A stretch of DNA of 64,000 nucleotides from Diatrype stigma. Taxonomy: Eukaryota; Ascomycota; Sordariomycetes; Xylariales; Diatrypaceae. The stretch lies in assembly GCA_022225965.2 (NCBI GenBank), contig JAKJXP020000043.1, positions 248,001-312,000 on the forward strand, written 5' to 3'. How positions within the stretch are numbered: position 1 is the first letter of the stretch; each line of letters opens with the position of its first letter. A program made the position numbers and the translations under genes. Below the pieces are notes generated by a model. It had not been told where the DNA came from and made no database searches. It was given only the letters and a program-made list of their open reading frames with translations. Shown here one piece after another: positions 3,619-54,116 of this stretch.

Positions 3619-4386
3619 TCAGAACATCATGCCGATAACCTGATCACCCGGACCTTCCGAGGTAATTCCGTGGTAGTGGCCACCAAACAGCTCTGGCTGA
3701 GCTCCGGCCCATCTCCATACGTACTGGCCAATGATTTGGGGACCCGACCCTAGATTCTTGTGCCTACTTGAGTTCCAACCCTTCGACGTTTCATAGACGC
3801 GGCCTCCTGATGGTTGCGCACCCGTGATTACTGATCCGATGACTTGTACGCCCGCTCCATAATACCAGATATCGTTGAAACGAGTAGTTGTGGTAATGGG
3901 CTCGTGAAGGGGGGTAAATATAGCGCTGTTGATCGGCGCGACAACGCTCTCAGGCTCATTACATTTGCACCCGCAAAGCCTTGAGTCACCGCCACACTTG
4001 TGTTCATTGTTATTGAGGACCCATGTTTCAGTGACGTTGGCCACCTTATCGTGGAAGCCACCCTCCATCGTGGGTTGTATTCCTAGAATTTGTCGACCCT
4101 GCCCATGATGTTGATTATAGTTAAACAGAGTGGTCTCCAGGCGCCGTGCGGATGATTGAGCTTCGGTATGCAAGTCCCGGTGGGTAAAGCGGTGTGAAGG
4201 CATGTCTTGACCGTTAATCTTCGGTGATTGGGTGATTAACTCGAAATTGGGACGGATGGTGCGAACGTTGGTCTTCGGCAAAGCTTTGTGGACACCTCTG
4301 TGAGGACCTTGTTTTGTGCTGGAGGGCGATGCCGACTTGGACGGAGAGTTTGGTCTGCGATTGAAATCAGAAGAAGACGGTGACAT
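3619..4386 (-). CDS. Protein with four amyloid-like G-x-Q-h-h-G repeats, no effector domain
   Basis: 255 aa, one exon, ATG at 4386. Residues 1-85 are polar, Ser/Pro/Arg-rich and probably disordered. Four repeats of an F/W/Y...N...G-x-G-x-Q-[VI]-[IL]-G motif follow: R0 88-102 (Gln99), R1 170-184 (Gln181), R2 203-223 (Gln217), R3 234-255 (Gln249, the very C-terminus). A Cys cluster (CGGDSRLCGCKC) lies at 131-142. R1-R3 align in order and closely in spacing with the three repeats of the HeLo-like protein at 50,665-51,810; QIIGQYV and FGGHY are identical in both. The motif resembles fungal amyloid-signalling motifs (sigma, PP) and the RHIM core. There is no HeLo, lipase or NLR domain, so an adaptor, regulator or decoy role is inferred. 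The frame stays open upstream to about 4,431 with a possible splice acceptor (minus-strand CTAG at 4,416-4,413), so a missed 5' exon is possible, though I found no HeLo-like sequence upstream. It is not RIP-mutated. Confidence 0.75.
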   Translation of the reverse strand: MSPSSSDFNRRPNSPSKSASPSSTKQGPHRGVHKALPKTNVRTIRPNFELITQSPKINGQDMPSHRFTHRDLHTEAQSSARRLETTLFNYNQHHGQGRQILGIQPTMEGGFHDKVANVTETWVLNNNEHKCGGDSRLCGCKCNEPESVVAPINSAIFTPLHEPITTTTRFNDIWYYGAGVQVIGSVITGAQPSGGRVYETSKGWNSSRHKNLGSGPQIIGQYVWRWAGAQPELFGGHYHGITSEGPGDQVIGMMF

Positions 4387-6024
4387 AATGATAGCGAAGC
4401 GCGCTCGGATGGCTAGGTATAGATAATAGTACTACTAGAAAGTTTAGTGCAGGTTGGTTGACCGAGATCATATGCGGACTGGAGAATAGACATCAAGCTG
4501 TGTTCACATGGAGCAGGCTCTAGCTACCTTTATAGGCGAAAGCAGAGCGAACGGGCTGTATACTGGTCTCCGAACCCCGGCGATACCTAGGTCAAGACCG
4601 TCTCAAAGGCATCTTATTTAAGCTATGAAGTTAACTGGTATTCCTTTATCATGTCTATCATAAGTGACATCATATAGACAAGGGAAATACAGTAGTGTGC
4701 AGGCATGGATCATTACAGGATGCGTCACAGCCCTCCACGATGTTACTACGCAAGTAGGTAGTGTCAACCAATAACAGTGTGACCAGCTTCCAATATTCAC
4801 CTCAAACCCGGCGGTTCCCTCTTCTGGCCTCGCATTTCATTACCCTGCTCGAAGGCTGGCACATCCATGCATCCAAGGACGGTGTAGATGCTGGGGGTGT
4901 AGTTCCTGTCGTTAGGTCTTGCCCGTTACAGAGTGCATGCGACAAGTAGCAACCTTCCACGATGATTGGTCATACAAGTATATGTTTACTGCCTAGACCC
5001 TGTCACCACCATCTTGGAACTAAATATCGACCATTCTGAATAGCCATTTCCTTATGCCTAGACCGACACGGACTGGAAAAAGTCGTACATATGATCCCAT
5101 ATTCCGAGGCGTAACGTACTTGATCTCCCCTCCCCCGCCCCCTTTTTTCGCGTAATGTATATTAAGGAACATACAGGTACCCCGGTGAGGGGTGGACAGG
5201 AACCCTCGCTGTTATCTCAGATAATCAACATATATACGAGGCCAAGCCAAGGCTGTATATACATTGGACACCTATATCCATGAATATGTATGGATTCACC
5301 AGCTAGATATCCATCTCGTCTCCAGTATGACGCAGAAGTTGATTATCTATGGAAGTCATCAGTGAAATCTCGCAGTTTAGCCAAAGCATCCTTATCTTGT
5401 TGCCGGGGCTGTAGAAGCCGTCCAGTGACTTAGGATCCTGTCGTTGTGTATGTTCGGCCGTTCTTGTTCACTTATAGGCAGATCAGAGTACGTGACATCC
5501 AATGCATGCGGATTCAACCAAGCAATGTAGGATTCGTCGTGATATGTTATGTACGTCGGTGCTTGGCAAGGTCGGTTCACTAATTACACTACTTATACGC
5601 TGGTGTGCACTGCTAAGAAACATATACGGGCTGGAGCCTTTCGCCTTGGAATGTAGGTACCTTCTTCCGTTTCTATATATGAGCGTGTCGTATTACGTAT
5701 ACAGTGTAACTTACGGGACACATGGAGACCTCTGTGGTTACTGCGGCTGCGTCAAGTGTAAATCGGACATGATGATGCCAGTACACCAAGGTATTTCGTG
5801 GAACTGGTACAGTTGATCTATAGTATTCACAGAAACACCCCCCCCCCCACCCCTATCAGAGCCCGGCGCCAAGTAATATCGACTTAGATATTATTAGGCG
5901 CAACGTCGGAAATCAGGGGGCGGGGAGCGACATACGAGAAAAGGCTTCCGTGTAATAACGGTTTTTAGGTGAGTAAAAGAGCTAGCCTAATATGCCCAAG
6001 TATTAACGTACTCGTCAGGACTTA
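4387..6024. other. Intergenic region up to the AT-rich island
   Basis: Only short unsupported frames. Simple-sequence stretches include a C-rich tract near 5,126-5,145 and an 11-C run at 5,838-5,848. Composition is ordinary until the LTR at 6,025, where the AT-rich island begins. The promoter of the minus-strand motif gene must lie in the first part of this region, but no single element stands out. Confidence 0.6.
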
Positions 6025-6144
6025 TAGGGCGGTCACGTAGATTCGCTACTAAATAAATCTCCTTAACTATTAACTTAGCTTTACTTACTTAGCAAAATAC
6101 AACTTCGTTTCCCCCTTATTCCGGATCCCTACAGTAATCCCACA
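6025..6144. repeat. LTR, left copy (120 bp)
   Basis: Begins TAGGGCGG (TGGGGCGG in the other copy, a RIP-type G to A change) and ends CCCACA. It aligns over its full 120 bp with 17,268-17,387, including CCCCCTTATTCCGGATCCCT. It marks the exact left edge of the AT-rich island. Confidence 0.85.
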
Positions 6145-6999
6145 TTTAGTAACGAAAGTGCTACTTCGAATTTTAAAACCTTCCGAATTGCTCCATATAA
6201 AGTCCTATTTACACTTTTTACTTAAACCATCTTATAATTCGACGTGGTTTTTCCAGTTTTTATTAATTATTTATGCTTTAATTTCGGTTATTAACGAAAA
6301 TTTTAAAAAACCAATGATTCTAATTAAATTACGTTATATCGAAATTATAAGAATTATTTATTCTGTTATTATTCTTTTTTATTCCTTTTTTTAATTTTTT
6401 AATATTACGTTATAACTCGTTTAATACAACTATTTTCATTATATTTATTTTATCGCAAGAATTATTAATTTATTTATTCGAATACGTAAAAAATTCCTGG
6501 AAAGTATTCTCGATTAAAAAATAAAAGGTTCCTTTTTATTTTAATCCCTTATCGATTTTCCAAAACCTTATTCCCTATTCCAAAACTTAAAAATTAAAAA
6601 AACTTGCTTATTACGCCATTTCCTTAATACCTAATGGAATTAATAACTTATTTTTTTAAATAAATAACGTATATATAAAATTCGTTTTTTCCTAAACGAA
6701 ATATTTTAAAAACTTGTTTATTTAAATGAATAAATTAATTAATTAATAAACCTTATTATATTTAAATATTAATTAAGTATTAATTAAATGTCGAATAAGT
6801 AATAATTAAAAATAACGCCGTTAATTATCGAACCCCCCCTTATTATATTATCGAAATAAATGCATCGAATAAATTGCTTATACCTAAATATTATTTATTT
6901 CGTTAATTTATTAATCCGTTAATACGTTAATCCATCGATTCGTTAATTTTCCGATTTATTAATCCGTTAATTCGTCGATTTATTAATTCGTTAATTTAT

Positions 7000-8640
7000 T
7001 ATTAATATGGTTACCAATTTATAACTCGTTAATTATAAAGGTATTTAATTAACTTTACCGATTTTATAAATCTTAGCCATCCTAAATTATAACAGAACTA
7101 ATATTCTCGCCAAAATATTGGCTAGGTCTTAAGGATTTATTGCCCAAACTGCTAAATTCCTGGAAATTATAAACAAATTCGAACGAAATTTTAACCATTT
7201 TAATACCGCTGCATCTCGATTATCCGTTATTATTATGTTTTTTACTTTTCCGATTTTCGAAGGGTTACCGGAAAAGTCGCCTTAGGAATATTTAAACGAT
7301 ATAGCGATTTACGTTAAAAAAACCTTTCCTGCGGCCGCTAATAACCCTAATTTAATTAAAATAAAATTAATCTTTCGATTGAATTTAAAAATAAATGCCC
7401 GCAAATGGTATTTCCAAATCCTTAAAAAGCGTCGATTAAATTGGGCTTAAATAAAAAACAGCTTCATTTAAAAATTCCCAATTAAAATCCGCATTAACGA
7501 TTAAAATAACGCATTCCGAATTAATAACCTAAAACGACTATCGAAAAAAAAGTTATCTTATTATTTAAAACGCATTAACGAATTTACGAAATAAGCGATT
7601 AATAAGCAACTTATTAAATTAAAAGATCGTTTTTATAAATATATATATATTAATGGCAATAAACGTAATTACTATTATCAAAACCGCGTTTTTAATCGAT
7701 TAATTACCGAAAAGCTAATTAATAAAAACCGCAAATTCGTTAAAACCTATACCTATTATAACGTTAAAAATCTAATTATTAATATTATATACCGTCCTAA
7801 CCGAAAAAATAAATTCGTAAATAAAATCGATGCCTTAAAGGGTTTTAAAGGCCGTATATCCAATAAAAAGGCTATCCAGGAAATGGAATTATTATTCCGC
7901 CAAATACGTAAATTTAATAAATAATAAAATTTAACAAATCCAGGCCTTATTACTTTTATTTCCGAAAATAAAGGATTTTAGTTTTTGTAATAATATAATA
8001 TTCAATAATTCCAATAACAGCAGCCGTTTTAATCTTTAAATATATAAGCCTACCGCATTAAATTATATATTACTTAATAAAAAAACGTTGCTAATAAATT
8101 AACCCCAACGATAAATATTATTTATCCTTTAATAATGAATTATCTAATTAAAACTAAAGGTTATTAAAGTAATAAAATAAATAAATAAAATATTTAAAAT
8201 GCTTATAATAAGTATGGGCAAGGTTTTTAAAATCCTTTAACGGCTTTTATTCCATAAAATACCTTCCCTTAAAACGTCTTCCCTTAAAATGCCCCTATAC
8301 CGATTCAAAATGGCGTTTAAAATGGCGTTAATAGCGGTGCCCAAAATGGTAATACTTAAAATGATATACAAAATAATAATACCTAAAACGGCTTTTAAAT
8401 AAATAATTAAAAAACTAATATTCGTTTACCTAATAATATAGGCTTGAAAAACCAATATGATTAGGCTTTTAAAAATAAAAAGCGTCGCGGATTTTTCGAA
8501 AAGGAATATTATGTTTTTATATGCTTTAATTGTAATAATTAGGGTTATTTTTCGATAGATTATCCGGAACCACTTTAATCGAATACCATCAAAAATAAAA
8601 TTCGTAAATGCGTTAAACGCTTTAAGCTAATCCCGAATAA
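7000..8640 (+). pseudogene. Gypsy gag remnant with RIP-altered zinc knuckle
   Basis: At 8,522-8,563 the plus strand reads as a CX2CX4HX4C zinc knuckle in which His is Tyr (CAT to TAT), the last Cys is Tyr (TGT to TAT) and one codon is TAG (from CAG). All three are C-to-T or G-to-A changes expected from RIP at CpA. Spacing matches retroviral-type nucleocapsid knuckles exactly. Upstream sequence from ~7,000 looks like decayed coding sequence but has no continuous frame; the outer limits are approximate. Confidence 0.6.
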
Positions 8641-9599
8641 ATTAAAATACCAAAAGCGCTAAATCCAAATAAAAACAAAACAGGTTATTAAAAAAAATTC
8701 AAATAATATTATTTAATTCCTTCTTTATGAAAATATAATTAATAATAATATTTACGTTACGGCTATATCGTCAATTTCCGTTATTGCCGGTTACCGATTT
8801 TCCAAGCTAAAACCGAAAGCTTTTATTCCGGTAATAACAATTCCTAACCCTTATCGTATAAATATTAATAATAATGCAAAACCGGATTCGTTTATAGGTA
8901 ATTTAAAACCTAGGCCTTTTATTGATCCATTAGTTCCTTTTAAACGCCCGATCCTTTCTCCTTTTAAAGATCCATCGAATCGTCGGCCCATTGGATTTAA
9001 GTATAATCCTATAAATCCCATTTATAAGGTTACATTATTGGCCCCTCGAAGTCGAAATCCGTTTTTAAGATTTAAGCTTTTTTTAATTAAAAAGTTAAAG
9101 CAGCAATTAATTAATATAAAAAACCGAATAAAGAAAAAGTCGTCCCGTATTCGAAAATTTAGTAATACGGTACTTATTAAGGCTTATAAGGATTATTTAA
9201 AAAGTCGTATTAATATTAATGCAATTCTTAAATCCATTTCGTTTCCGAATATTATTTAAGGACAATTGCTAAATCGTTTCCTAACGTTAAAAGCTTAGCT
9301 GAATAAAAAAATAAGCCTTTCCGTAAAAAATCGAAAACCGAAATTATCGAAAAAATTCCGATTTATTAACTTATAATCCCATTTTGTATAAGTAAATTTT
9401 ATATAAATAATAGCTGCAATTAACCTTTTTTTTAAATTTACGGATCGAACCAAAACCGATAATAATGTTATTTACTTGGATTATATCGATAAAAAAATAA
9501 ATGGTTAGGTAATTCGTTAATGCCTAATGAATTTCGAATTTTTATTTAAATTCGTTAATCCAGCTTTAATTAAAAAATTAAGCCTTTAACAAATTAAAT

Positions 9600-9850
9600 T
9601 ATTCGAAGAATATAAATTAAAAATAACTAATAATAATATAGTTCTAATTATTTATTACGTTATTTTTTCATTTATTATAAAAGGTATTATAACGGTTATT
9701 CGAATATTCGTTATGAATATAAATAAATCCTATAACATTCTTTTAAGAAAAAAATGGCTTTAACGAAATGCTGCCTTTATCGATTTCCATATAAAAAGCC
9801 TTATTTTAACTGAAATTAATGAATAAACTTATATTTTAACCATATAAAAA
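9600..9850 (+). pseudogene. Retroviral-type protease remnant (tentative)
   Basis: With stops ignored, the plus strand gives a stretch around 9,700-9,780 resembling the C-terminal part of an LTR-element aspartic protease (a hydrophobic pair followed by a Y-x-h-L-L-x-x-x-W-L-like pattern). No D-T-G triad is readable. It lies downstream of the gag remnant, as expected. Confidence 0.35.
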
Positions 9851-9861
9851 GCCCTTAATTC

Positions 9862-10385
9862 TGGTTTTATTTATATAAAGCAAAAAAAGAATTACCAAAT
9901 ATTAAACCGTTTACCGTTAAAAATCGTTTATAACGAAAAAATCCTTTTTTTAAAAAATAAATCGAATTCGGATATTTACGATAATAACGATAAAACTACC
10001 GAATAAAAAAAAAATGGCCGAAATTACCTGGAAAAAATAATCGATATCGCTAAACTAACAGTCGTTCAAGTTCGTAACGATCCCTTTTTATCTTTAAAAA
10101 AATAAATAAAAGCCAATTTCGAAATTAAGCTTTTACTTATTTTTTTAAAGGTAAAAAGGAATCGTTACGAATTTGGACGATTACTAGCTTAGCGATATCA
10201 ATTATTTTTTCCAGGTAATCTCGGCCATTTCTTTCTTATTCGGTAACCTTATCGTTACTGTCGTAAATATCCGAATCCGATTTACTTTTCGAGAAAAGAA
10301 CTTCTTCGTCGTAAACGATTCCTAACGGTAAACGGTTCAGTATTCGGTAATTCTTCTTTTGCTTTATATGGATAAGACCAGGATA
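9862..10385. repeat. Large imperfect palindrome, arms ~250 bp
   Basis: The sequence at ~9,862-10,113 matches the reverse complement of ~10,129-10,385 at roughly 85-90% by eye; for example, the segment containing GGCCGAAATTACCTGGAAAA on the left returns as TTTTCCAGGTAATCTCGGCC on the right. The arms are separated by only ~15 bp. It sits exactly where plus-strand remnants give way to minus-strand remnants, so it probably marks an inversion or head-to-head join of two related elements. Confidence 0.85.
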
Positions 10386-10449
10386 TAGATTTCCTTAGCT
10401 ATTAGCTTAGCTTTAAGGGAGAAAATAAATATAAGGATGGGCCTGGATT

Positions 10450-11150
10450 AATTTTGATTCGCTTTTAAATACGGCCAAAGGCTGAAATAATATAAGGTAG
10501 CTTTTACCTATCCTTACGAATTAATGATTCGTATATGGGCCCAGTTAAACGGAAGAATCCATTTATAATCTTAATAATTTTCGAAGTATTTGGACGGTAA
10601 TAAATAACAAATTAATATTCTTCCAATCGTTTTAACCAAGTTAAAATGTAACCTTTAACGTTAGAATCCATTTCGAAAATCTTAAGCAGGTTTTGGTAAT
10701 TAGTATATAACATAACCGGAAATAAAAAGTTAATAATCATTCATCGATATTTAGCTAAGGCTTTTATTATACCAAATGTTTCCCGTTTTCCAGTATTATA
10801 TTTCGTTTCGGTATCTAAGAATTTAAACGACAAAAATATAAGGATCCTTATTAACGGTAAAAGCTTATTCGTTATAAATATATTAATAGGCTAATTATTA
10901 AGCTAAAACAAAATGCCCTTTATTTTAATACCAAAGGCATCGATTGTTAAATGGTATTATTTATCCGGCTAAGAATTTTTAATAGCTTTTTTTTAAATCT
11001 TATTGCATATTTTTACAAATGCATCGGCCTATAATGGATCTTATTTAAATGGCTTGGAAATTGTTTTCCGTTGGACCGACTTTTTCCTATTGGTCGTCTT
11101 TTTTACGACCAGCTTTATATATAAATCCTTAAGGATCCCGATTAAATTTA
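10450..11150 (-). pseudogene. Gypsy RNase H remnant
   Basis: On the minus strand, with stops ignored, the order of conserved patterns fits a Ty3/Gypsy RNase H: an I-D-A-x-G-like segment, then a segment ending in E-T-F-G-I-I-K-A-L-A, then FLFPVMLYTNYQNLLKIF (family pattern P-x-x-x-Y-T-D-H-x-x-L), then a W-L-x-R-L-x-E-Y pattern and a final S-R-L-like motif. D-to-N and H-to-Y changes at key positions are of RIP type. The reverse transcriptase expected upstream could not be read with confidence. Confidence 0.6.
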
Positions 11151-12984
11151 TCCGTTCTGATATATAAACCTTTAAGTATGGGATAAAATAAAGGAATTCC
11201 TTTAGCTCTTTTTAAATCTTTGGGTAATTTTCTTTTAGTGCTTACCTTATAAAGCGATTTCGGTACTTTATTAATAAACAAATCTTTTCATTAATAAGCT
11301 CGAATCTTAGGATATTAATACTATTAGCGAATAAAATTATTTTTTTAAAGGCAATACTTATGGAAATAAAATCCAATCGGGGAAAGTATTAATAATAAAG
11401 GAAATTATAAAAATTATCGAAAAATCGGGCTGATATATTATAATTATCGATAAAAATATCGAAAAAAACGTTTAAGCCGGGATAATAACCAAATAATAAC
11501 GGAATCGCCGGTTTTTGTAATGCATTATTTTCGGCTATAAGCTATTTACTAAAGCTTATATTACCTAATGTATAATAAATATATAATAATCCAGTTATAT
11601 CTTAAGGCATTCGTATATTAAATCATTATTTATTTGGAATAATAAATGCCGTTTTGGCTTAATCTTTTTGTTTCGTTTTAACGGATTAGTAATCATGTAA
11701 CGCATTTTCCTGGAAATAAATTAAATGATTTCCTTAAATTATAATATAAAACATTCCGTTTTGATTATGTATTGGCTATTAAGGTTTTAAAATAACCGAA
11801 TTAATTGATTTGTAATTCATAATTATTCGACGATTTCCATTTTTTTTAAGGGGGTATTAAAAATACGTATCCTATCGTTTAATTCCCGGAATAATAAATC
11901 CTATTCGTTCGATTTATGGGAAGATCCGTGCAGCGAATTTCCGGTTATCTGGAATATATTTAGGTTATTTAAATTTAAAAGGTTTAACGGATTCGTCGAT
12001 AATAATGGTATATTATACCAAATCAATTAAACGAATATCGCTTAATGCTTTTATAAAGCAGTTTTTTTAGGTATAACAAAGTCGGCGGACTTTTGCTTAT
12101 TTTTTTAACGTATCGGCAATATTGCTAATTATGATTCCTATATTATTAAACCATTAATTAACCAACCATTAAGGGTTTAAATTAATATCTTTTTGTTTTG
12201 GTCGATAATTAATTACGGAACGTTTCGAAAATGCCTATATTAAGGTTATATTCGTAAATGGAAAAAATCGAAAACGAGGAATTATAGCAAAAAAACGTAT
12301 TATAATAGCATATAATTATTTAATATATTTATTAATTGGGAATAAATCCGCCCGAAAAAACTTAATTATTTTTTTCTTTTTTTTTAAATAAGGACCAAAA
12401 TTATTCCTAAAACTCTTATTATAATAAATAGCATTTAAAGCCAATTTTTCGTTATTAAGGTTATCGAGAGTTAAAGTTGTTTCTTTACGATTATCGTATA
12501 TTTTTATGTATCGTAACGAAGCGCCGTAAATTCTATATATATCGTTCTTTATAATATTAATAATTTTATTTTAACATATCTGCTTATTTATCGAAAGCAA
12601 TGGCAAATCGGGCAAATCCCGGACTTAAAGATTATTATAAGCCAATCTTCTTTATTATCGGGTATTAAGGCCGTTAATAATACAGTTTTTATAATCGAAA
12701 TGAACTTTATGAAAAACGAAAGGTTATATTAACGAATTCCTTAATAGGATTATTAATACTTTTTTATTTTTTGGTCGTTTATTTAGATCCGGCAATATAA
12801 TCAATTAAGATCCAGCATTATCGAAACCAATAGGGGTCGTAAAAAGGGAAGCCCAAATAGGGATTCGGTTTTTATTAACGATAGGAAAAAAAACAAGCAA
12901 TCGATTAATAATCCACAAATTAATTTCCGAAAGATTTCGATTAATCGAGACCAATATAGCTATAAAACTAATTATATTCATTAT

Positions 12985-13150
12985 GACCTAACGGCCCAAG
13001 CAAGACATAATGGAATGAAGAATCAACGACGTTGGTGCCGTTGGAATTACCATTGGAGCTAAATCAAATGTATCAGGGCTTGGTTAACCTTAATTATTGG
13101 ACCTCCCATAACCATCTGGAACTAAAACTTCGTCCCTTTTGCTCCTAAGA
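12985..13150. other. Patch of non-RIP sequence inside the island
   Basis: About 165 bp of near-normal composition rich in CA/TG (for example GGCCCAAGCAAGACATAATG) lies between heavily RIP-altered stretches. It may be single-copy sequence caught between two elements, or a recent insertion. No coding potential was recognised. Confidence 0.5.
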
Positions 13151-13999
13151 TCTTTGGTTCATCCCGAATAAAAAAGATGAAATAAATAGAATCGAAAAAA
13201 ACACAAAACTAAAGGTAGCATTTTGCCTTGTTAATGGCTTCGAAATAATCTTTCGTAAGCTTAAACGGAGATTTATACTGGCCTTATAAATCTACCAATC
13301 GCGGCTTTGTCGTAATCGGTACTAAGATCGCTTATTAAGGATTACTCTGCCTTTTTAAGATTCGAAACAACTCGTTATTATCCAGATTCGGATATTAATG
13401 TTTCAGCCAAAAAATCGCTTTCTTAATTCGGATACGATATAGCAATAAATTCTCCGAATTATTGGAAATTTATGGCTTAAGGATTTCCATAGTTGTATCG
13501 ACGACCAGTTAAGATATAACAAAACGAAACGATATAATTATAAAATTAAGGTTTATAATTTAAGTAATAATCGGACTTTAATAATTAATAAACTTTAATA
13601 ATTAGCAATAACCAAATATACGTTTAATATCCATTACAAAAAAAAAGCCAAAATTTCGCAACTTCCATTTTTATTTTCCGAATATCCTTATATTCCTTAT
13701 TAACAAAAATATATCATACCCATTATTACCTTTTTTTCGTTCTTTTTATTTCCTAGCAACTGCACCATTTATTATATACCAATTATTAATACCGTTCCTT
13801 TATTTCTTTTTTTATTTACGAATTTATTAACCACCATTAATAAAGGGATTAATAATAATCGGTCGTAAATTAATCGCTCGATTATTTATCGGCTTATACG
13901 GAATTTCCGGAACTGAATCCGATTTTTTTAAAAGCATATCTTCCGGACTTCGGTATGTAATTGGTACTTTTTAATAAATTGATTCTCGAAAAATTATTT

Positions 14000-15000: not shown

Positions 15001-15249
15001 TACCAGAAATTTCCGATAAGCTTTTTAAGAATAACCGTTATAACGTAATAGCCATATCCGTTATAAGACCATATTAAGGCCAAACTGACCTTATTAAGCA
15101 TTACGCATTCGGAAAAGGCCCCATTTTTTTCGATTCGGTATAAGTAATTATTAATAAATCGGTAACGATAAATATCGCGGATTATTAGTTTTCGTCGTGC
15201 CTAAGTCTTATTTTTAATAGCATCTGGACCAATAACCAAATATCGGATA

Positions 15250-20423: not shown

Positions 20424-20438
20424 TAATAATATATTATA

Positions 20439-40195: not shown

Positions 40196-40797
40196 ATTTC
40201 GACATTATTACGCAAAAAATTAGCTATGGAAATTAAAGAAAATAAAAAAATCTTTAAGAAACCTTATAAATACTTCGAAATAAAAAGGCTATTAAATAAA
40301 CGAATATTTCGGAAAAGATTTAAATATTTAATACGATAAATAAGTTTTAATGCCGTATACGATAAATAATACTTATAATAAAATTTAATCGATATAATTA
40401 AAAAAGAATATAAGAATGCAATAAAAAAATAAAATATATTCCAAAACTTAACGCATTTATAAATTAAGAACTTTACGAATTTCCGATGCTAATACAAAAA
40501 CCGCTACTTATTATTATCATATTAAAAAAAAGAATATAATTAAAAGCGGCTAAGGCTTTTTATTTAACCCCTTAAATTAATCGCAAAAAATTCGAATAAA
40601 GCCCAAAAAAGAAATCCAAATAAGCAAGGACATATAATAAAACAAAAGCGGTTATTTCGATTAACGAATTGCTAATAATTAAAATAAACAAAAGCTTTTA
40701 TAAGCAAAAGTAAGCGGCAATATTGCCGAAAAAATAATTATATCGTTTTTTCTTAATTATTTAAACTTTTAACCTATTATTTATACATTATTTATAT

Positions 40798-43096: not shown

Positions 43097-43112
43097 TATA
43101 TATTATTTATAT

Positions 43113-45202
43113 TTATACGAACTAATTAATAAATTTAATAATATAAAAATTTCTCTTAAAGTAAATAATATAAATAACAAAAACGACTTCGCTAATATAA
43201 AAAAACGTATAAAGGGATTTTAATAACTTATAATACATTCTAATAATTTTTCTTCCTTTTGTAATATTAACTTAATAATTTAATTAATTATTTCCCATTT
43301 TATTTCGGTTTTTTAATATTTATTAATATTTCTTTTTAATATAATATAACTTATTTATTATACAAAAATAACTAATAATATCAATAATTATCATTAAAAA
43401 ATTATTAATTTATTTATTAATTACTTAAAATAATAGGAATTACTTATTTATATATTTGCCTTAATATAATATATAATATATCCAATATTTAATTTCCGGT
43501 AATATTTATTGGCCCTTTTATTATATAAAATTCCCCAGTTATTATTTATTAATTACAAATATTTTAAATAAACATAATAATATATATTCCGTTGCCGTTT
43601 AAAGTAATTAGTTATTTCCTAACGGCTTTTCGAAATACCGAAATTACAGTAATAATAAAAATTCCCGAATATTTATAAAAGAAACTATTTAAAATATATT
43701 TCGAAAACATTTTAACGATCGAAAGTCGTATTTAAAAGCAATTAATAAAATAGGTAAAAGCGGGTCCTGGCCGTAATAATGTTCGGAATAATATCCGTTA
43801 TTATTTAAGCAATTATTTACATTATTTAAATAATAATTACGGACGAAATTTATAGGTAATTTTTAGCTTTTAGGCGCTTTTTAATGCATTTTTTTAACGA
43901 AACCAGTAATAACGCCCGTTCCAATTGGCTTTAATAATAAGCCCCGATTATTATGAAGAATAAAAATAATTTATAAATACCGTAATTATTAAAAATAAAA
44001 GCTTTTACGAATGCTTTATATAAAAGATTGCTTTTTAATAACTTATAAAGAAAAATGAATTAAAATAAATTATTAAGAAAAATTTTTCCGAATGGCTTAT
44101 AAAAAAAACTGCTTTTAAGCGGTTTATATAATCAGTTATTTTTTAGCGGCTTTTATGGACGCCTATTATTTAACGGTTTAGCAATATCGCTAAATATATC
44201 CGCCGGCAATATTTAGCGCCGACCAAACCTTAATTTTTCATACGAATTTAATTTAATCGGTACCGTAATATTTTTTACCGATAATTTATTTTTATTAATT
44301 TACCGTTTAGAAATTCCTTTAAATATTACGTAAATATTTTTAATAATCATTATTAATATTCGTTAATTCGACGGCATTTAAATATAATAAATTATTATTA
44401 TAAAAGCCATTATTATTTAATAATTAAATGCTACTTTAACCATATTTACGGAAATAATATTTCGATTTATTAATAAAAAAATGCCGAATATAATTTTCGT
44501 TATAAATAAAAACGAAACATTATAAATAATAACGTAAAGCAATATTAATTAGCGGCAAATACGAATTGCTAATTATGGTACCGAATATATACAAACCATA
44601 TGCGGAAATAATGCAAAAATTATGGCCTTTAACGACGTTGTTCTTTATTAAACGCGTATTTCGCAGTTCCGAAAAGAAATATCCGAAAAAGCTACTTTTA
44701 CGAATCGGCCTCTTTTTAATGCTTCGTTTATAAACCGGTTTTTACGTATTTTTAATCCTAAAACCGAATTCCGCGACCTTAAATTAAATTTTAATAATTA
44801 CGACGAATACATACGAATTATAAATTACCGAAACTTTTATCGAATATTTCGTAAAAATTAATTTAAATTATTAATATTATATATTACCGAATAAACCGAA
44901 TAAATAAATGGACGAAATATAAAATATTCGGAATTACTAATAACTTTCAAAATAAAAAATTAAATAAATAATACGACATAAATAATATTAAGATTTTCGT
45001 ATATAATAAATAAAGCGAAATATTTTAATATAAGGATTAAGTTTATATGTAATTAAGTTTTTAATTTTAATTATGCAATTAAGTTATTAAATAATCGAAT
45101 ATTGCTTTTTAATTTATAAAAACTAAAAATATTACGTATTTTTTATATATATTAAATATTATCCATTACGAAAACGTAAATGATATTTCGTAAAAGAATA
45201 TA
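43113..45202. other. 3' internal part of Gypsy 2, unidentified
   Basis: AT-rich, RIP-altered, no readable domain. It lies between the LINE D insertion and the right LTR. Its length beyond pol suggests the element once carried extra sequence or another nested insertion. Confidence 0.45.
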
Positions 45203-45461
45203 TATTACGTAATATAATAATCCCTAAAATTATTCGATATTACGTATTTTTATTTAATATTATTAAGAACTATATAAAAATGTTTAAAGTTCTTAATATT
45301 TTATAGCAATTTATGCTTTTATTATTTTATAACTTTATTTTATATTGGTAATAAATAATACTAAGCATTACATAACGGTATTATGCCCTTATATATAATC
45401 GACGTTATCGACGCCGCCGGCATTTCTAGCTAGAAATAGGGAATCCGGAATGTCCATAATA
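45203..45461 (+). repeat. Gypsy 2 right LTR (259 bp)
   Basis: Aligns over its full length with 30,706-30,964; ends CCATAATA followed by the ATAAT target duplication. The shared core includes TAGCAATTTATGCTTTTATT. Confidence 0.9.
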
Positions 45462-45466
45462 ATAAT

Positions 45467-46350
45467 TATATTTATAATTATATTTATAATTATATTTATA
45501 ATTATAATTATAAATATAAATATAATTATAAATGCTAATAGCTATTAATATTAATATAAATAAATAATACATATATATAAAGAATGTATCTAATTAAAGG
45601 GCTAAATAATAATAAGTAAATAATAATAAATTAATAAAACTTATAACGCGTCGTTTTTAATATAATACTTTTTTAAGCCATAATAAATTTTTAATATAAA
45701 AAGTTTAACGAAAAAATTAATTAATAAATAAAAATTATTAAAGCCGATTATATAACGATTTAAAAACGAATTTATATAAAAAATAAACTATTTACATTTT
45801 TAAATAAAGCTTTTCGTTTATAAATTCTTTATTAAATTCATAGCTTTATATTAAAAGGTTATTTAAAACGAACGAAAATATACGACTTTTTTTGTTATAT
45901 TTATTTCTTGCCGAAACGTTTCCGAAATGTAGCCGTTTTCGTTTAAGCTTATTATATTTATAAGCGAGTTAAGAATTTCCGTAATTTAGTTATTCGATTT
46001 TTTAATTTCTTATTAATTTCGTTTCGTCTTTACTTTAATATTTCCGTTAATTACGTAAAATATTTCTTTTTATATTCGTAACGGCATTATATATAAATAA
46101 GTTTTAATCGTAATCGATAAATTAACGAAAATGCGTTATTACGTATTCGTTTTCGATATAAAAGTTAAAACTTTTAAAAACGCTTTCGTAATTTAAATTT
46201 ATAAATTTTACGGAATTCTTAATATAATTATATTTAATAAACATATATAATTCGTTTTTACGTTTTAAAATAAACTTAATTACCGATTAAGCATTAGCTT
46301 ATATTATTCGTTAATATATTATCTTAAATCCAATAGCTAAATAGAAATTA
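45467..46350. other. Old repeat patchwork passing into Gypsy 3 remnant
   Basis: The first ~170 bp continue the ATAATTATA and TTAATATTAATATAA patchwork seen left of Gypsy 2 at 29.2-30.7 kb, as expected if Gypsy 2 split it. From about 45,650 the sequence looks like decayed coding DNA without a readable domain. Confidence 0.5.
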
Positions 46351-47200
46351 TTAATAACGTTATGAAAAAATATTTCCGTTTTTATTATTCCTTTTATTAA
46401 AACGACTAAATCGATTGGTTTTTATTAACGGAATTCGCCGAAAATAATGCCGTTTCGGAAATAGTTAATATATTATTCATTTTCGTTAATTACGGTTTTT
46501 ATTTACAAATGAATACCAAATTAAATTGCCTTATTATCATTCTTAAAACATTAATTCGTTAATAGAAATCTTATAATGTTACGATTATAACTAATAAAAT
46601 CGAAAAGGTTTTAATAATAATTAGGTTTTTTATAATAAGATCTTAAAAACGTTAAATTAAAAATGCAACCCGGTATCGAATTAATGCCGGTATATTCGAA
46701 ATAAAAAAATAACGTTAAGTTAATATTAAAAATATTAAGATAAAACGATTTATAAAAGAGCTAAATAATAATTAAATGGGCCTTTTTTATTACGAAAACA
46801 AATAAACGAATCGTAGCCGTTTAAATATCTAATTATTTTCGAAATTTTCCCGTTTTTTATATTTTATTAATCTGAAGGCAGTAATAAAGCTTTTTCGATT
46901 AAAAAGCCATTAACGAAAAATTAAACCGACGAACCGAAGGCGTTATAATATTACAAAATGAAAAAAATAAAAAATAAGAAATAATAGTTTAATAAAATTC
47001 TTAATTTTTGATATATACGAATGGGATTATAATACTGAATAAAATAGCCGGTTCCGTATCGGTTTATTTAAAATCCGGCCCGGAATTTTTAAAAATATAA
47101 CGGTAATATAGTAAATTTTTATAAAAAGAATTCCATTAAGCTAAGCCCTTTAAATTAATAAATATGGCCCGAAAAAACCGCGGTTTGAATTTATAATTAA
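46350..47200 (+). pseudogene. Gypsy 3 integrase remnant (core end to chromodomain-like tail)
   Basis: With stops ignored, the plus strand at about 46,420-46,520 reads WFLLTEFAENNAVSE, then FIFVNYGFYLQMN, the A-x-N-N-x-x-S...F-F-x-N-Y-G-x-H-P pattern late in Ty3/Gypsy integrases. A GLFYYE-like block (family G-P-F) follows near 46,770, and a segment near 47,000-47,150 could be a chromodomain-like tail. It is a different copy or family from Gypsy 2. Confidence 0.65.
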
Positions 47201-49770
47201 CGAATTATATAAAAAATAAAGTTTTTATTTATATAAGCCCAAAAGGCTTAATAAGTCGCAAAACGATTTATATTAATAAGAAAAATACAAATAACAAAAA
47301 AGCCGTAATTAAAAGGCCAAAATTAAATTACGAAAGCCAAAATAAAACCGAAATAATAATTAATTAATTATAATTAATGTTAAAACATTAATAAAACGCA
47401 GCTTAATATATTACTGCAAATAAAAACCGGCAAAAAAAAGAAATTATTGCTTAATAAGCGGCAAAATCGAACGAAAACGTCGCTATATCGTCGTTTATTT
47501 AATTACGGCCGAATTTCGTAATTAAAATTTGCTTTATTTCCTAATAAAAAGCGCGTTTAATGATTATTTAAATTTATTAGCCGGTATTGCCGAATATAAA
47601 ACGCGATTTAATAATAACCTTTTAAGTCGCTTAGGTATTATCGTTTTATTATTTTTTTATTAATTAATTAAAAACGAAACGAATACGAAACGGAATATTT
47701 ACGTTATAAATACGAAAAACGGAATTTTGTATTTGCATTAAAATACGATACGTAACGATTTAAACGGTATATATATTCGGGATTTAAGCGTTTTACGGTT
47801 AATTTAATATTAATATAATATTAAACGATTAACAAATAAAATACATTTGCTTTTTTTTAACGCCAGTTTTATTAATAGCAATACGATAAGTTTTTTTAAC
47901 CGTTTCGATAATAATGCAAACGTAAAATATAATCGTAACGATAATAATCCGGATATTATCCGAATAAATTCGAACGAATTTATTTGCGAAATTTAAAAGT
48001 AAATTATTATTATTATCGTCGTCGTTTTAAATAACGCCGAAAAAATAATCGACTTAACGCAAAAAAACGAATAAATCCGCTTAATTGATTTATATTTTAA
48101 ACGACGCCGAAATATAAAACTATTAATAAATAAACCTTACGTTATTCGTAAAACGCCATTAAAATGCCGATTAAATTTACGAATTGGCAAAGGTTTTTAC
48201 GATCGATATATAATAAATATATTACGTTTATTATATTCGTTTATTCGTATATAAATGCCGGCATTTCGTCGTTAATCGGAACGAAATGCTTTATAATATA
48301 TCGAAAGCATTTTATATATAGCGATTTCGTTAAAAAAACGAAACGAAAGCGGTATAAGAACGGAAAAGCATAATGTCGACGCGGTAATAATATCGATAAG
48401 CAAATAAATAAACGGAAAACAAACGAAACGATAAAATGGATATAAATATTAATCGATCGAAAAAAAAAACAACGGAATAATTACGATTCGGCAAGCTTTA
48501 AAAAGAATTATAAAATAAAAGGAAATATTAACGTATTTATATTTTAAATACGGGGCCTTATAATTAATAATTAATTATATAAATATATAATTATTATAAT
48601 AATACGTTATTTAAGGCAGGTATTTATTTCTAAATCCGGCTTAGCGTTTTGAATTAATAAAAGGTACGGAATTAAGTAATTTATTAAAATATACGTTATT
48701 CGGAACAAGTAGTTTTTTTTTCGGATCCGGTTTAACGTTATTAAATATATTTCGAATTAATACCAAATTATAATTAAAATACCTTTTTCCTATTGCCTAA
48801 TAATTCAAAAAATTAATTTTAGGAAGTAATTAAAAATAATTACTTAAAAAAGGAATTTATTATTACGGTATTAAATATATAACTATTGGCCCGGTTTTAC
48901 ATTATTGTATATAAAGAAACGTTTCGTTCTTTTTAACTTAAATCTTTTTTTTCTTTTCGTGTAATAATAATTATATCTTTTCGATTTTATATTTGCTTAT
49001 AGCCGTAATAACATTTGCGCTATGAATTTAGCTAAAAAGAAAAATGTTTTTTTATTTGCTTATTTATAGGAATTTATATATAAAATTAAACAAATTAACA
49101 TCTTTTATATAAACGAGAATTAAAGCCCATATGTATCGGCGTCGGCCTTTAGCCGTATAACTAAAGCCGATAAAAATAACTAAAAGCTTATAGCTATATA
49201 ATAACGCATTACTCGATCAAAATACCGCGGTTATAATATACGTAATATCGCATATATTACTACTATTACGCTTAATAAATTAATAGTCATAAAAAAGACG
49301 AAACGGTTTAAATTAAATATTAATTCGTTTATTATATTATAAGACGAGCCGTTATTCGGGCCGCCTTTAAAAAAAGAAAACCATTACATAATAAGACTTA
49401 TTAAAGATTTAATTAATAATAAGCTTATAATAATATACGAAAGCTTATAAATTATAAATATATTAAATTATATATTATAAATATTAATATAAAGGCATTT
49501 ATATTAAAGAAAATGTTATATTAATTAAATTTATTAAATATAATAAACCGATATTTATTAAAATTAACGAAATTCGAAATAGGTCTTAAGTAAATAATAA
49601 GTAATAATAAGTTATAATTCTTAAAGTAAAACATAGCTTTACTTTACTTAAAACCTTAATAAGCTGGCTTATTTTTTAATAAAGTATAAAGATAAGAATT
49701 ATAAGCTAGTAAATACTTTATTATTAAAAAACAGTAATAATATATCCGTTAACTTTTAGCCGATACCGTT
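47200..49770. other. Decayed transposon sequence to the island edge
   Basis: RIP-altered, no readable domain; the open frame at 48,164-48,373 matches nothing I know. Composition returns to normal between about 49,760 and 49,800. Confidence 0.5.
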
Positions 49771-50664
49771 ATATAATATGCTAAGCCACTAGGTGCCGAT
49801 TATCTGGTTACGTAATCCAAGCTCTCTTATTATAGCCCCTATATCGCGAGAGAACTACTTTAAACAAGATCCTCCAAGTAAGAAATTTACTGAGTAATAA
49901 TAACCTTGTATGCCACTACTAGATTCTAGTAAGAATTACCGACCCCAATGCCCTCCTCGGTACTCGCTTGGCAATATTGCGGAAGTTTTTTTAAAACACG
50001 CTCCTAGCCCCTATCCATCTATGTTAAGCAGTATCATCTTAACTATACATCCAAGTACCCCAGTCTCCTAACTTTTTAACACCACCTTCGCATGCTTTAT
50101 CTTATGAAGTATGCCGTTAGCACATTGTTTGCACGAGCTATCCACAAACTGAGCCTCATGATGTCGAACAAGCTTCGGTAATAGATAGAAACGGTCCGTG
50201 TTCACAATGCAGAATAGTAGGTAGTGTGTAAGTGTATGAGTGTATGCCGATTGCTGTGATCAGTGGTTTAAGGACTTCACATAATGGATAACGACGGTAT
50301 TATAGGCACAAGTAAGCTGTATTGTATTGTCCTTAAAAGCAGTATATGCAACGCGCAACTAACTAAACTTTTAAGCGGGCTGTTGAAGCTTTATACCGCA
50401 AAGGGGGTATAGATCTCACTGACTAGGAAAGGTTCCGGCACTGCGCATGCACACTGCTCGGTTGCAACAATTCCGTGGCCACGTCGTGAACACCGTGGAA
50501 TATGGTAACAGCCTGCTTATATACATTTTGGTATTTCAATACGTGCAATAACAAGCCAATGTGTCCCTTTTTGGTAATTATAGCTACTCTGGCTGGCTAG
50601 TTCCCGATATAGGTAATGGACCAGCCCTACCGCTATATGGACACAAGGCGTAGGTATTGCCCTA
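49771..50664. other. Intergenic region downstream of the HeLo-like gene
   Basis: Ordinary composition, no supported gene. It would hold the 3' UTR of the minus-strand gene at 50,665-51,810. Confidence 0.55.
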
Positions 50665-51810
50665 TCAAAATCTTAGTCCGATCACTTGGGTACCGTCACC
50701 GTAATTGGTATTGTGGCAGTAATGCCCTCCAAAAGGGATAGGTGAGCTTCCGCTTTTTACATACTGGCCTATGATCTGGTCTCCCCTGCCACTCATAGTA
50801 TTACCAGTAATATACCACTTGGAAGTAACGTCAAGTAGCTCATTGCTGGGAGGCAGGTTCTCTTTATTTTCGATCATAGTTCCAAGTACCTGCATCCCGG
50901 CCCCTCGACATTGGTTATTCTTGAACGTAGTGGGAGCCGTAATTGTATTTGGCAGTACTGGGCTGTTGGCTGATTGATCCTTGTGATCGATTCTCTCAAG
51001 GTCCAGTTCAGTGGGAGGCGTCATGTACGATTGGTCAGGAATAGGTCGTGGTGAGAGTATTGCACAGCAATATTTGTTGTCTACGCCATCTGACAGTGCG
51101 CGGTGGGCGTCGCTTAGTAGTGACTTATTTGCAGCAGGTACAAGTTCTCGGTCAGTACCAGCAGAGATCCGGGGCCCTTCCTGTTCAGGTGGGGGCCAAT
51201 CCATTTCGACACTAGTTCCAATATATGATAGGGGGCATATTTCGTTTGGACTGCTTGTCATATCAGACGAAGACTCGCAATTGCTTGATTGATCCTCGTA
51301 TTTCAGTTCATGGGACTGCTCCGCATCCTTTGGGGCGGAAATTCTATATTCATTTCGGGCCTCCGCCTTATCATGTGCTTGTGGTGAAGAGATTCGCTGG
51401 ATTCCTCTTCGGATGTCGTCTAGTATGGTTGAGTTCAAAATGGCAATGTGTAGTGCTAATGTGGCCTTTCTTTTCTCCAAGAAACTGAACATATCCTCAT
51501 ATTCCTTCTGTTTGAAAACAAATATCATTGAAGCGAAGAAGCGATTCTGGTTCCGGCTCTCTTTGTAGCCCGGCACCTTGATGCTTGTGATAGTGTCAGA
51601 CAGTGATTCGGTGCATTTTTCAATCTCGGGTGTTCGGAGGGAATTATTATCGATTACCGCCTGAAGTAGGAGATGTGACTCTTGGATGGCCTTCTGGTAT
51701 CTGTGTAAGGTGCTTGCTGATCCCTTAGCTTTGGTGAAAAAGTTGCATAGAAATATGCAATAATCTACCGCCTGTACTGCAGCAACGATAGTTCCTATCA
51801 CTTCGGCCAT
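50665..51810 (-). CDS. HELLP-like protein: HeLo-like domain plus three amyloid-like repeats
   Basis: 381 aa, single exon, ATG at 51,810 with G at +4. Residues 1-140 form an alpha-helical HeLo-like/SesA-type domain: the start MAEVIGTIVAAVQAVDY is typical of the N-terminal domain of fungal NLR-associated and HELLP proteins, with a hydrophobic first helix. Residues 141-290 are a polar linker. The C-terminus carries three repeats: R1 296-310 (Gln307), R2 331-351 (Gln345), R3 360-381 (Gln375), each ending G-x-Q-[VI]-[IL]-G, with QIIGQYV and FGGHY shared exactly with the protein at 3,619-4,386. In known HELLP/HET-S systems, amyloid templating of the C-terminal motif drives the HeLo-type domain to the plasma membrane and causes cell death; the same role is inferred here. 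It is divergent from the membrane-protein gene at 53,386, with 1.6 kb between. A HET-S-like prion protein is the alternative, but the motif is not the HRAM type. Confidence 0.8.
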   Translation of the reverse strand: MAEVIGTIVAAVQAVDYCIFLCNFFTKAKGSASTLHRYQKAIQESHLLLQAVIDNNSLRTPEIEKCTESLSDTITSIKVPGYKESRNQNRFFASMIFVFKQKEYEDMFSFLEKRKATLALHIAILNSTILDDIRRGIQRISSPQAHDKAEARNEYRISAPKDAEQSHELKYEDQSSNCESSSDMTSSPNEICPLSYIGTSVEMDWPPPEQEGPRISAGTDRELVPAANKSLLSDAHRALSDGVDNKYCCAILSPRPIPDQSYMTPPTELDLERIDHKDQSANSPVLPNTITAPTTFKNNQCRGAGMQVLGTMIENKENLPPSNELLDVTSKWYITGNTMSGRGDQIIGQYVKSGSSPIPFGGHYCHNTNYGDGTQVIGLRF

Positions 51811-53385
51811 TCCTATGATGTATCGATGGGCAATGATTTAGCCCCTATATTGACGGGAGTCGAAACGGGTTGGGGGTATCTTAGGAACATCGGTGAGCTT
51901 GGAGAAAAGGCAGTTTTCCTACTGCGCGCATAGTGCCGTCATAGTGGTGATGGAACGTGGGTTGGTTGATTATGACGATGTAGCAGGGTAAGTAACTGAT
52001 ATGGTTTCGGTGAATGGTAGGTTAAGCAGGAACATGTAAGCAGCAAATGACAAGGCTCGTGTGACTCATTAGTTCAAGTCCACCACATATACGAACCTAA
52101 TACTACCAACAGATATTGCCTTTCTTATATGTGGAAGGATCATTCATCGTAGTAAGCAGCAGACCAAGCAAGGGGTATTTATACCACCCCTTACTTATAT
52201 AACTACCTCATTGACACCCATCACTCCAATTCTGTCCCCTTGGCTTTGAGCCTCTCTTGGCATCCCCACTAATCGAGACGCAGCATTCGCCACACAGTAC
52301 TTACACAGCCGGGGTATCAGGTTGGCCAGGAGCATATATTACAATGCCTGGTTGGCTATGAGACGTCCTGAAGTACTCTTATGTTTACAAGTCCCTTTCT
52401 TCTCTCATTGGTCTTACTTGATGGCAAATAAATCCCTGTTCAACCAATATGCCACCGAAAACCAAAATGCACATTGACTGGAACAACACATTGCCTTTGG
52501 GCATACATCGTTGCCGGTTACAGTACCCGTCCCACACTGTGCCATTATAGACAATTTGAGGTTTATATTTCGTATCATGACGTATTCATTGGGGGCAGTA
52601 CAATGTCGGCGATTTTCTCTAGTCTCTTTTTTTGCCGAAGTGTTCCGTATCTACCTATGTACTAAGTTATCTCACCGAAATACACGGCATGTAATACATC
52701 GTGGCTGACTACTTTACAAAAGAACAGCCCATACGCCCAGTCTTAGTACCAATTATTGTGCCACTGCATATACTTATCTCCCACGTACGTCTCAGTAGAA
52801 GGTGGTTTGCAGTCGGATGTTGGTAACACAAGGACTTCTTTGTTCAACACGAAGATATTACGGACTCAGGGTAGACATACATACGTTCGGCTGGGGTGCG
52901 GCGGGCAGCTGGCGGCGCAACTCATCGGCGCGCCTTGTTGCATGGGCTGCATGGGTAGGTCTAGTACCTATCTGATGACCCACATGCATCGAAGGCCAGC
53001 ATTAAGTGCATAAAGGCAGGCATAATTGGCACCCTTGACACCATTATCTGCAGTTGGTAGGTGATGAGTGGGGGGGCAGGCTTGGCAGGGTTGCGAAAGA
53101 CGTTAGCTATGATCGAAATAGTAGTACATGGGCACCTTCAGGTGGTTTTCTTGCAACGATAATCGAGACAAAAATAGAGAAAGGGCCAAATAGTGGGAGA
53201 TCTCGAAGCAGGGCGCAGTCAGTGATGGTTTGCCCGGGCCAAGGCCCCCAGAGGATGAATGGCTCTGGAGCGGAACACTGGGTAGGACTAAATAGGGGCC
53301 ATTGGCCATATAGATAAAGCGCAATATTGCTCTTTGCAGCCTCATGAAATTCAACGATTGCGCTTCATTTTCATAGAAAGCAGTC
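51811..53385. other. Divergent intergenic region between the two motif genes
   Basis: About 1.6 kb separates the minus-strand HeLo-like gene from the plus-strand membrane-protein gene, so both promoters lie here. Frames inside (for example 52,756-53,013 and 53,054-53,317) are short and lack recognisable features. No shared operator was identified. Confidence 0.55.
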
Positions 53386-54116
53386 ATGAATCGACATACC
53401 AATAGGGACAGAGACTTCACAGCCTTCGCCAGTGCCGATTTTCACAATAACACCAATCGAGGCCATGACCAAGTTCTTGGACTTAAGACGGAAACATCAG
53501 GTGGGGCACATAACTACAACTGGTTCTACAACCATCTCAGCGGGGTTATCATCGGCGTTGTGGCTATTATTGCTTTGCTCATCATAGGTCTGGGCCTAGG
53601 CCTTGGGCTTGGGCTACGTGGCTCCAATATACAGGGCCAAGATCAATTGTAAGTTAGTACACTCTCACAGTCCATTTACTAAGATGGACGCCCTGCATAA
53701 TTGTCTTTCTAGTTACATCTTACCCTTCTAAGTTACTCTGCTAAATGCCTAACAGAATGCCCATGACCTCTGGCACATCCCCAATTCCAGGCGCTAGCCC
53801 TTCTGGATTGATCATGCAAACTACTTCGCCGGTCTCTCAGACTGCCCCGATGACAACGCTACGGACAGAAACGAGCTGTGAATATGGATGCTACAGTGAT
53901 TATCTCAAAACAGGTAGCTGTGACAGCGGATGTCCTGGTGCTTTCTGCTCAGATGATAACGGGTGTCTTGATCCTTGGCCATGCATTACCCATGTATGCT
54001 GTTACACTGGCTGTAAGCCTACTTGGAGCTGCAGCGGGGAATGCTCGAATGGCTTGAAATGTGTATCCGACTTGGATGGTACAGAAGAATCCACATGTCA
54101 GGCAACTTCACAGTAG
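53386..54116 (+). CDS. Single-pass membrane protein: amyloid-like motif, TM helix, 14-Cys domain
   Basis: Two exons, 53,386-53,648 and 53,756-54,116, give 207 aa; splicing keeps the frame (TT+A codon). Residues 1-50 are polar and contain FHNNTNRGHDQVLG at 19-32, which aligns with R1 of the HeLo-like protein (FKNNQCRGAGMQVLG) with one residue less. Residues 52-77 are a membrane helix ending in a GLGLGLGLGL run, typical of fungal signal-anchor segments. A Ser/Thr/Pro-rich stalk follows, then about 75 residues with 14 cysteines, including a CC pair, suggesting seven disulphides and an extracellular location. With N-terminus inside, the motif would face the cytosol with the Cys domain outside, a receptor-like layout. 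No domain name is known to me for the Cys pattern. Topology and sensing role are inferred. Unspliced, the first frame would stop after 88 residues, just past the membrane helix. Confidence 0.7.
53649..53755 (+). other. Predicted intron (107 bp)
   Basis: Donor GTAAGT at 53,649-53,654 is a perfect consensus. Acceptor AACAG ends at 53,755 and is the site I found that preserves the downstream frame. Branch-point candidates are TTACTAAG at 53,676-53,683 and GCTAAAT near 53,740. An alternative acceptor at 53,712 (CTTTCTAG) would meet a stop after five codons. Confidence 0.7.

Follow-up and report, generated by a model that had tools for sequence, protein, structure and literature searches.

A possible sigma/PUASM-like amyloid-signaling locus with a membrane protein on the sensor side in Diatrype stigma

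Nearest described systems and the shared motif

In passages of the literature that include parts of PMC9815663 and PMC3321046, fungal amyloid signaling motifs are described with partners of the NOD-like receptor (NLR) or signal transduction ATPase with numerous domains (STAND) type. A published rule, given in a passage of PMC9815663, places the motif N-terminally on the sensor and C-terminally on the effector. The sigma (ses) locus of Nectria haematococca (sesA, sesB, and het-eN), as excerpts of PMC3321046 and PMC5485727 describe it, shares Gly/Gln-rich repeats (GxGxQ/GGTQ) within one locus; its motif consists of submotif A (GxGxQFNxx) and/or submotif B (GGTQNINT), with three copies in ∼40 residues. 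A second related motif, PUASM, is given as FxGxGxQxxGxGxF in a passage of PMC9815663. Here we analyzed a window of 64 kb on contig C43 (JAKJXP020000043.1) of the Diatrype stigma genome (49 Mb, 224 contigs), in which three genes, here called P255, P381, and PTM, likewise share Gly/Gln-rich motif copies in one locus. We tentatively read this set as a sigma/PUASM-like amyloid-signaling locus with a type II membrane protein (PTM) on the sensor side and P381 on the effector side, a real possibility that falls a little short of probable. The genes and their motif copies are as follows, in window coordinates.

3619..4386, minus strand: P255, an open reading frame (ORF) of 255 aa with four motif copies and no Pfam domain
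4072..4134, minus strand: P255 motif 1 (aa 85-105)
3826..3888, minus strand: P255 motif 2 (aa 167-187)
3718..3780, minus strand: P255 motif 3 (aa 203-223)
3622..3684, minus strand: P255 motif 4 (aa 235-255, extreme C terminus)
50665..51810, minus strand: P381, 381 aa, with a weakly HeLo-like N-terminal region, a linker, and a C-terminal three-motif cassette
51361..51810, minus strand: candidate HeLo-like domain of P381 (aa 1-150), with profile support above shuffles and an all-helical low-confidence model
50872..50931, minus strand: P381 motif 1 (aa 294-313)
50758..50820, minus strand: P381 motif 2 (aa 331-351)
50668..50730, minus strand: P381 motif 3 (aa 361-381, extreme C terminus)
53386..53648, plus strand: PTM exon 1, encoding the presumed cytosolic tail with the motif, then the hydrophobic segment
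53431..53493, plus strand: PTM motif (aa 16-36)
53649..53755, plus strand: PTM intron of 107 bases (GT..AG), predicted by reading; the spliced product aligns with homologs on both sides
53756..54116, plus strand: PTM exon 2, encoding the stalk (30% Ser/Thr), then the Cys-rich ectodomain (14 Cys) from ∼53877

The motif spans ∼21 residues around GxGxQ[VI][IL]G, with four copies in P255, three in P381, and one in PTM. The gene positions and copy numbers of the initial annotation, which had been made from the sequence alone, are confirmed. That annotation had also proposed the formula aromatic-x-x-N...G-x-x-Q-[VI]-[IL]-G, which needs revision: the Q[VI][IL]G end is present in all eight copies, but G-x-x-Q fits PTM only, and an aromatic residue (F/W/Y) followed by x-x-N occurs in four of eight. 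The spacing G-x-G-x-Q is found in seven copies, the sole exception being PTM, with G-x-D-Q and a core of the form GxDQVLG. The published position rule fits, with the motif N-terminal in PTM and C-terminal in P381. Together, G, N, Q, and F/W/Y/H make up 38 to 48% of the motif-bearing regions, compared with 18 to 25% in the remainder of P255 and P381.

P255 and P381 are related through their repeats. In a single pairwise comparison, their C-terminal 94 residues were homologous (39% identity; E, 3e-15), which qualifies the original description of the three proteins as otherwise unrelated. When the genome was searched at E values up to 1, each matched only itself and the other, and a PDB sequence search gave no match to either. 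The only four cysteines of P255 are clustered at aa 131 to 142 (window positions 3961 to 3996), between motifs 1 and 2.

Among described systems, the sigma locus offers the most detailed comparison. According to excerpts of the sources cited above, SesA is remotely like HeLo/HeLo-like proteins and carries a C-terminal motif of three repeats; P381, a candidate HeLo-like protein, likewise ends in three motif copies. Unlike the sigma locus, this one yielded no NLR and no lipase, and it is a membrane protein that bears the sensor-side motif; one sigma-bearing protein of N. haematococca, according to portions of the sigma-locus literature, is not encoded beside a STAND gene. The residues after the glutamine differ as well (QFN/QNIN in sigma versus Q[VI][IL]G here), and the copies in P381 start 37 and 30 residues apart, compared with three copies in ∼40 residues. 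With GxGxQ in seven of eight copies but FN after Q in none, and with too wide a spacing in P381, the window copies lie outside the sigma definition. The GxGxQxxG core of PUASM is likewise present in seven of eight copies, and they lie outside that definition too, with F at Q-6 and G at Q+5 in none of the eight. Unlike PUASM systems, the putative effector is not a PNP_UDP protein and no NLR partner was found.

An effector with C-terminal motif repeats and a partner with an N-terminal motif also recall HET-S/NWD2 and HELLP/PNT1. Here, in contrast, the partner is a membrane protein, and the proteins had no HET-s-type Pfam match. The link that the initial annotation drew to these two systems is one of analogy, whereas the motif sharing and the membrane protein on which it also relied are supported. 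Judged from its sequence, the motif resembles sigma and PUASM, is closer to them in pattern than to HET-S/HELLP, and is a strict instance of neither. The PP motif, whose core is NxGxQxGxN with Gly at Q+2 (passage of PMC9815663), was ruled out by spacing, Gly standing at Q+3 in all eight copies; HRAM was set aside after no Pfam match was found.

The membrane protein family and the candidate effector

PTM is a spliced, single-pass membrane protein of 207 aa (53386-53648 joined to 53756-54116, plus strand). By sequence, it consists of an N-terminal tail of ∼50 residues with one motif, a hydrophobic helix (hydrophobic windows above 1.6 span aa 46 to 80), a stalk, and a domain with 14 cysteines. 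When used as the query of a protein search, the spliced product returned four homologs (E, 5e-52 to 2e-20), from Annulohypoxylon nitens (P0001), Astrocystis sublimbata (P0002), Xylariaceae sp. FL0804 (P0003), and Nemania sp. FL0031 (P0004), and a profile search, in which only the 7,998 candidates with the most words in common were scored, added a fifth, from Whalleya microplaca (P0005). All five belong to the Xylariales, which by itself would probably place the fungus studied here in or near that order. The six family members have the same build: an N-terminal tail, a single hydrophobic stretch of 29 to 38 residues, a stalk that is 30 to 46% Ser/Thr, and then 14 cysteines. Each of them shows the sequence features of a type II protein, that is, one hydrophobic segment, none upstream of it, and a C-terminal Cys-rich domain. 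PTM is most likely a type II protein with a cytosolic tail and the Cys-rich domain outside, given that nothing hydrophobic lies upstream of the helix and that a domain so rich in Cys would be expected on the secretory side.

The initial annotation had pointed to a membrane protein in the position of a sensor, which the sequences support. The tail motif is kept in all five homologs as well as in PTM (6/6), with two copies in P0004. In an alignment of PTM with P0001 to P0004, in which P0004 was placed by its second copy, the invariant tail columns after Met1 were the N, G, D, Q, and G of the motif; the fit of P0005 was judged by reading. Two spacings occur: GxGDQ in P0001, P0002, and the second copy of P0004, and GxDQ in PTM, P0003, P0005, and the first copy of P0004. 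These recall sigma submotifs A and B as given in parts of PMC3321046, and two relatives stand nearer to the sigma motif than the window copies do, namely, P0002 (GPGDQYNG) and P0004 in its second copy. P0004 itself carries two tail motifs of unlike spacing, GGDQIIG and GPGDQNNG, which possibly parallel submotifs B and A, respectively.

Database comparisons placed the family in no known group. Neither PTM, scanned as two exons, nor P0001 to P0005 matched a Pfam family, and a PDB sequence search with the family gave three weak matches only (E, 0.52 to 4.5). The Pfam family Ses_B (PF17046) matched none of the window proteins (E up to 10, with PTM as two exons) and none of P0001 to P0005 (E up to 1), and its single match in a genome search was below threshold and lay elsewhere in the genome. 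An AlphaFold model of PTM exon 2 was poor (predicted local distance difference test [pLDDT], 44). Four further candidates (P0006 to P0009; E, 7e-3 to 0.7) were dropped from the family on reading, their C-terminal parts being different and their N-terminal part lacking DQxxG; one of these, P0007, has a partial core, GKGIQVIS, close to its C terminus.

On the other side of the putative pair, we compared aa 1 to 150 of P381 with 14 rows from the same genome that had matched PF17111 (10 rows) or PF14479 (4 rows), one of which (L078) was in the wrong frame. Profile alignment by hhalign against these HeLo/HeLo-like rows gave a score of ∼31 and probabilities of 64% and 56% in two runs, compared with at most 16.6 and 1.1% among 40 shuffles; for 30 further shuffles, no match was reported at the default threshold. 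The protein starts with MAEVIG, similar to MAEILG in row L070. A single-sequence AlphaFold model of the region was helical and too poor for a fold search (pLDDT, 44), and searches of the genome with PF14479 (HeLo), PF17111 (HeLo-like), and PF17107 (SesA) did not retrieve P381, which had no significant match in Pfam. A HeLo-like N terminus is plausible and not proven, the sequence signal being weak.

Chance level of the motif and the profile link

In the 49-Mb genome, a DNA pattern for GxGxQ[VI][IL]G had 27 exact matches and its reversed control had 28; the bare core thus occurs at chance level and we did not use it as evidence. Seven of the 27 matches are the copies in P255 and P381; on in-frame reading, none of the remaining 20 was judged to lie in a comparable context. 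The PTM form, GxDQ[VI][IL]G, had 12 matches versus 6 for its control. One of these is PTM itself; of the other 11, two are interrupted by a stop within the match, and none did better by profile than an E value of 0.52. Together, the two exact patterns, which pass over diverged forms such as QYNG as well as intron-split copies, gave 39 matches, of which 8 are in P255, P381, and PTM, with none of the other 31 judged comparable. An earlier proviso, that random occurrence of the motif in unrelated proteins would speak against the locus, is thus resolved in part: it holds for the bare core, while by these two patterns a motif in convincing sequence context appears confined to this locus.

Given the frequency of the core, our case is made by clustering and by a profile built from foreign tails. 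This profile drew on the six tail motifs of the five PTM homologs, with no window sequence included, and was run against 3,523 sequences, comprising P255, P381, PTM, and 3,520 background ORFs of at least 40 aa that came partly from pattern-fetched loci (13 loci covering the window genes were left out, and matches in shorter ORFs were judged by reading alone). PTM ranked first, also as its exon 1 ORF, followed by P381 (E, 8e-5), P255 (E, 0.023), and the best background sequence, L032 (E, 0.09). P381 scored 20.2 bits and P255 12.4 bits, compared with 10.2 bits for the best of 4,000 shuffles (2,000 per protein). L032, which has GPGDQILG on contig C83 and had itself been fetched by the pattern, is the nearest by profile among the 20 other core matches; it was set aside as a short ORF with no surrounding gene on reading.

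These results bear on whether the PTM family belongs with the other two proteins at all. The short G/Q likeness could be coincidental, with only P255 and P381, as bearers of a duplicated cassette, belonging together. In line with this, the core is no commoner than its reversed control, the E value of P255 is modest, and in the reciprocal test described below, one shuffle beats five of the six PTM-family proteins. We nevertheless regard coincidence as very unlikely, since foreign tails retrieve P381 at the E value given above and place both P381 and P255 above all 4,000 shuffles, and since P381 and PTM are divergent neighbors with 1.6 kb between their start codons.

A different alternative accepts the relationship and takes the motif for a contact or oligomerization motif rather than an amyloid, so that the proteins would form a membrane complex without prion-like templating. 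In favor of this, the profile evidence is evidence of sequence sharing only. The patterns themselves argue in the other direction: PUASM, the peptides of which form fibers according to a passage of PMC9815663, has the same GxGxQxxG core, and GxGxQ recurs in sigma submotif A; a passage of PMC3321046 mentions unpublished results according to which one sigma peptide is fibrillar. The composition of the motif-bearing regions is also similar in kind. A nonamyloid motif seems to us rather improbable.

Several observations weigh against the reading of an amyloid-signaling locus with PTM on the sensor side. When the profile was reversed and built from the P255/P381 repeats, P0001 scored 23.2 bits, PTM 11.6, P0004 10.1, P0002 8.8, and P0005 8.3, P0003 was outside the best 14, and one of 4,800 shuffles reached 14.5 bits, above PTM. 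The A. nitens protein (P0001) thus resembles the window repeats more than the window's own PTM does, and the greater likeness of motifs within a cluster that parts of PMC3321046 report for sigma loci was not seen here. The PTM motif is one residue shorter than the GxGxQ spacing. P255 is separated from P381 and PTM by 46 kb that include an AT-rich block. P381, the only one of the repeat proteins queried there, had no homolog at an E value of 0.01 in a protein database. Its HeLo-like label, taken from the initial annotation, keeps the weak hhalign signal above 40 shuffles but found no HeLo-like domain match in Pfam, and phmmer with the first 150 aa against the 14 rows gave a best match (L070) that was not significant (E, 0.042).

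NLR partners, proposed mechanism, and genomic context

In line with the initial annotation, which saw no NLR in the window, there was no NACHT match inside it. PF24883 had 52 matches in the genome, one of them on this contig, ∼140 kb from P255. The initial annotation had suggested looking for motif-bearing NLRs elsewhere in the genome, and none was found in 45 scanned pieces, a scan that left NB-ARC NLRs, intron-split N termini, and flanks beyond ∼1.5 kb outside its range. Thirty NLR loci with 1.5-kb flanks had no motif by regular expression or profile, and 15 more upstream pieces (covering the 14 distinct PF24883 places that were left and a single place matched by PF05729 alone) had none by profile. 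The single PNP_UDP locus found also had no motif.

This search addresses the possibility of an ordinary NLR-controlled, sigma-like system, in which an undetected NLR with a diverged motif would activate P381, and PTM would be a second effector, an anchor, or a regulator in the same polymer. The published association of fungal amyloid motifs with NLR/STAND partners, in the passages cited at the beginning, favors such a system, as do the many NACHT-type genes of this genome, with NB-ARC NLRs lying beyond the search. Set against these are the 45 motif-free pieces, the window without a NACHT match, and the motif-free PNP_UDP locus, and on balance we think an NLR-controlled system unlikely.

From the motif sharing, tail-motif conservation, and architecture observed in the sequences, we infer a topology, an amyloid fold, seeding, and cell death that would operate as follows in a sigma/PUASM-like locus with PTM as the sensor. 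Binding of a ligand, or clustering, outside the cell would bring PTM tails together, and the GxGxQ/GxDQ motifs of the gathered tails would nucleate a cross-beta fold. The motif cassette at the C terminus of P381 would be templated by this fold. By extension from HET-S/HELLP biology, the candidate HeLo-like bundle at the N terminus of P381 would in turn attack the membrane, with the death of the cell as the outcome. P255, with four motifs and no recognized domain, could be an amplifier, an adaptor, or a decoy in the same polymer. The localized motif-sharing set and the conserved membrane protein family are thus tied together by a hypothetical pathway.

As an analogy, the nearest functional parallel known to us is Drosophila PGRP-LC/IMD, in which, according to a passage of PMC9496462, a cRHIM amyloid motif in the intracytosolic part of the receptor recruits a motif-bearing partner. 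The parallel is one of working only; no sequence relation is claimed, and the fly system has a PGRP ectodomain and an NF-kB output. A keyword search of one open-access library for fungal transmembrane or plasma-membrane amyloid-signaling receptors found none (by their titles, PMC8195603 and PMC5292560 concern bacteria and metazoans, and caspase-8), and the passages that term searches retrieved from PMC7889193, PMC12881547, and PMC12261475 contained no such fungal receptor. It is possible, though less likely than not, that Xylariales type II receptors with a sigma/PUASM-like tail motif directly template HeLo-like executioners and so form an NLR-free fungal amyloid branch, a counterpart of PGRP-LC/IMD. 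Fungal amyloid signaling is otherwise described, in the passages cited, as triggered by cytosolic NLR/STAND proteins. If the proposal is true, motif-tailed membrane proteins would let fungi trigger amyloid-controlled cell death from the cell surface, and fungal sensing of non-self from outside would become a question directly testable in Podospora or yeast.

The genes lie in two islands of normal GC content (1-6000, 49% GC; 49801-55700, 45% GC) surrounded by AT-rich DNA of 26 to 27% GC at 6001-49800 and 55701-64000. The first of these stretches is the block that separates P255 from the other two genes.

6001..49800, no strand: AT-rich block, 27% GC, with a dinucleotide bias like that of repeat-induced point mutation (RIP), separating the two gene-holding GC-normal islands

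The ratio (CpA+TpG)/(ApC+GpT) is 0.55 and 0.63 in the AT-rich DNA versus 1.03 and 1.24 in the islands, and in fungi such a bias is a RIP-like pattern. At the left end of the window, positions 1-528 (plus strand) hold the final part of a reading frame, which matches DUF3433 below threshold (E, 0.056; 14.2 bits versus a cutoff of 27) and may be the terminal exon of a gene for a membrane protein. Close to the border of the AT-rich DNA on the right are three copies of an 85-nt direct repeat at 56086-56342 (74 to 76% identity to the reference copy) and two copies of a 66-nt direct repeat at 56498-56672 (83%).

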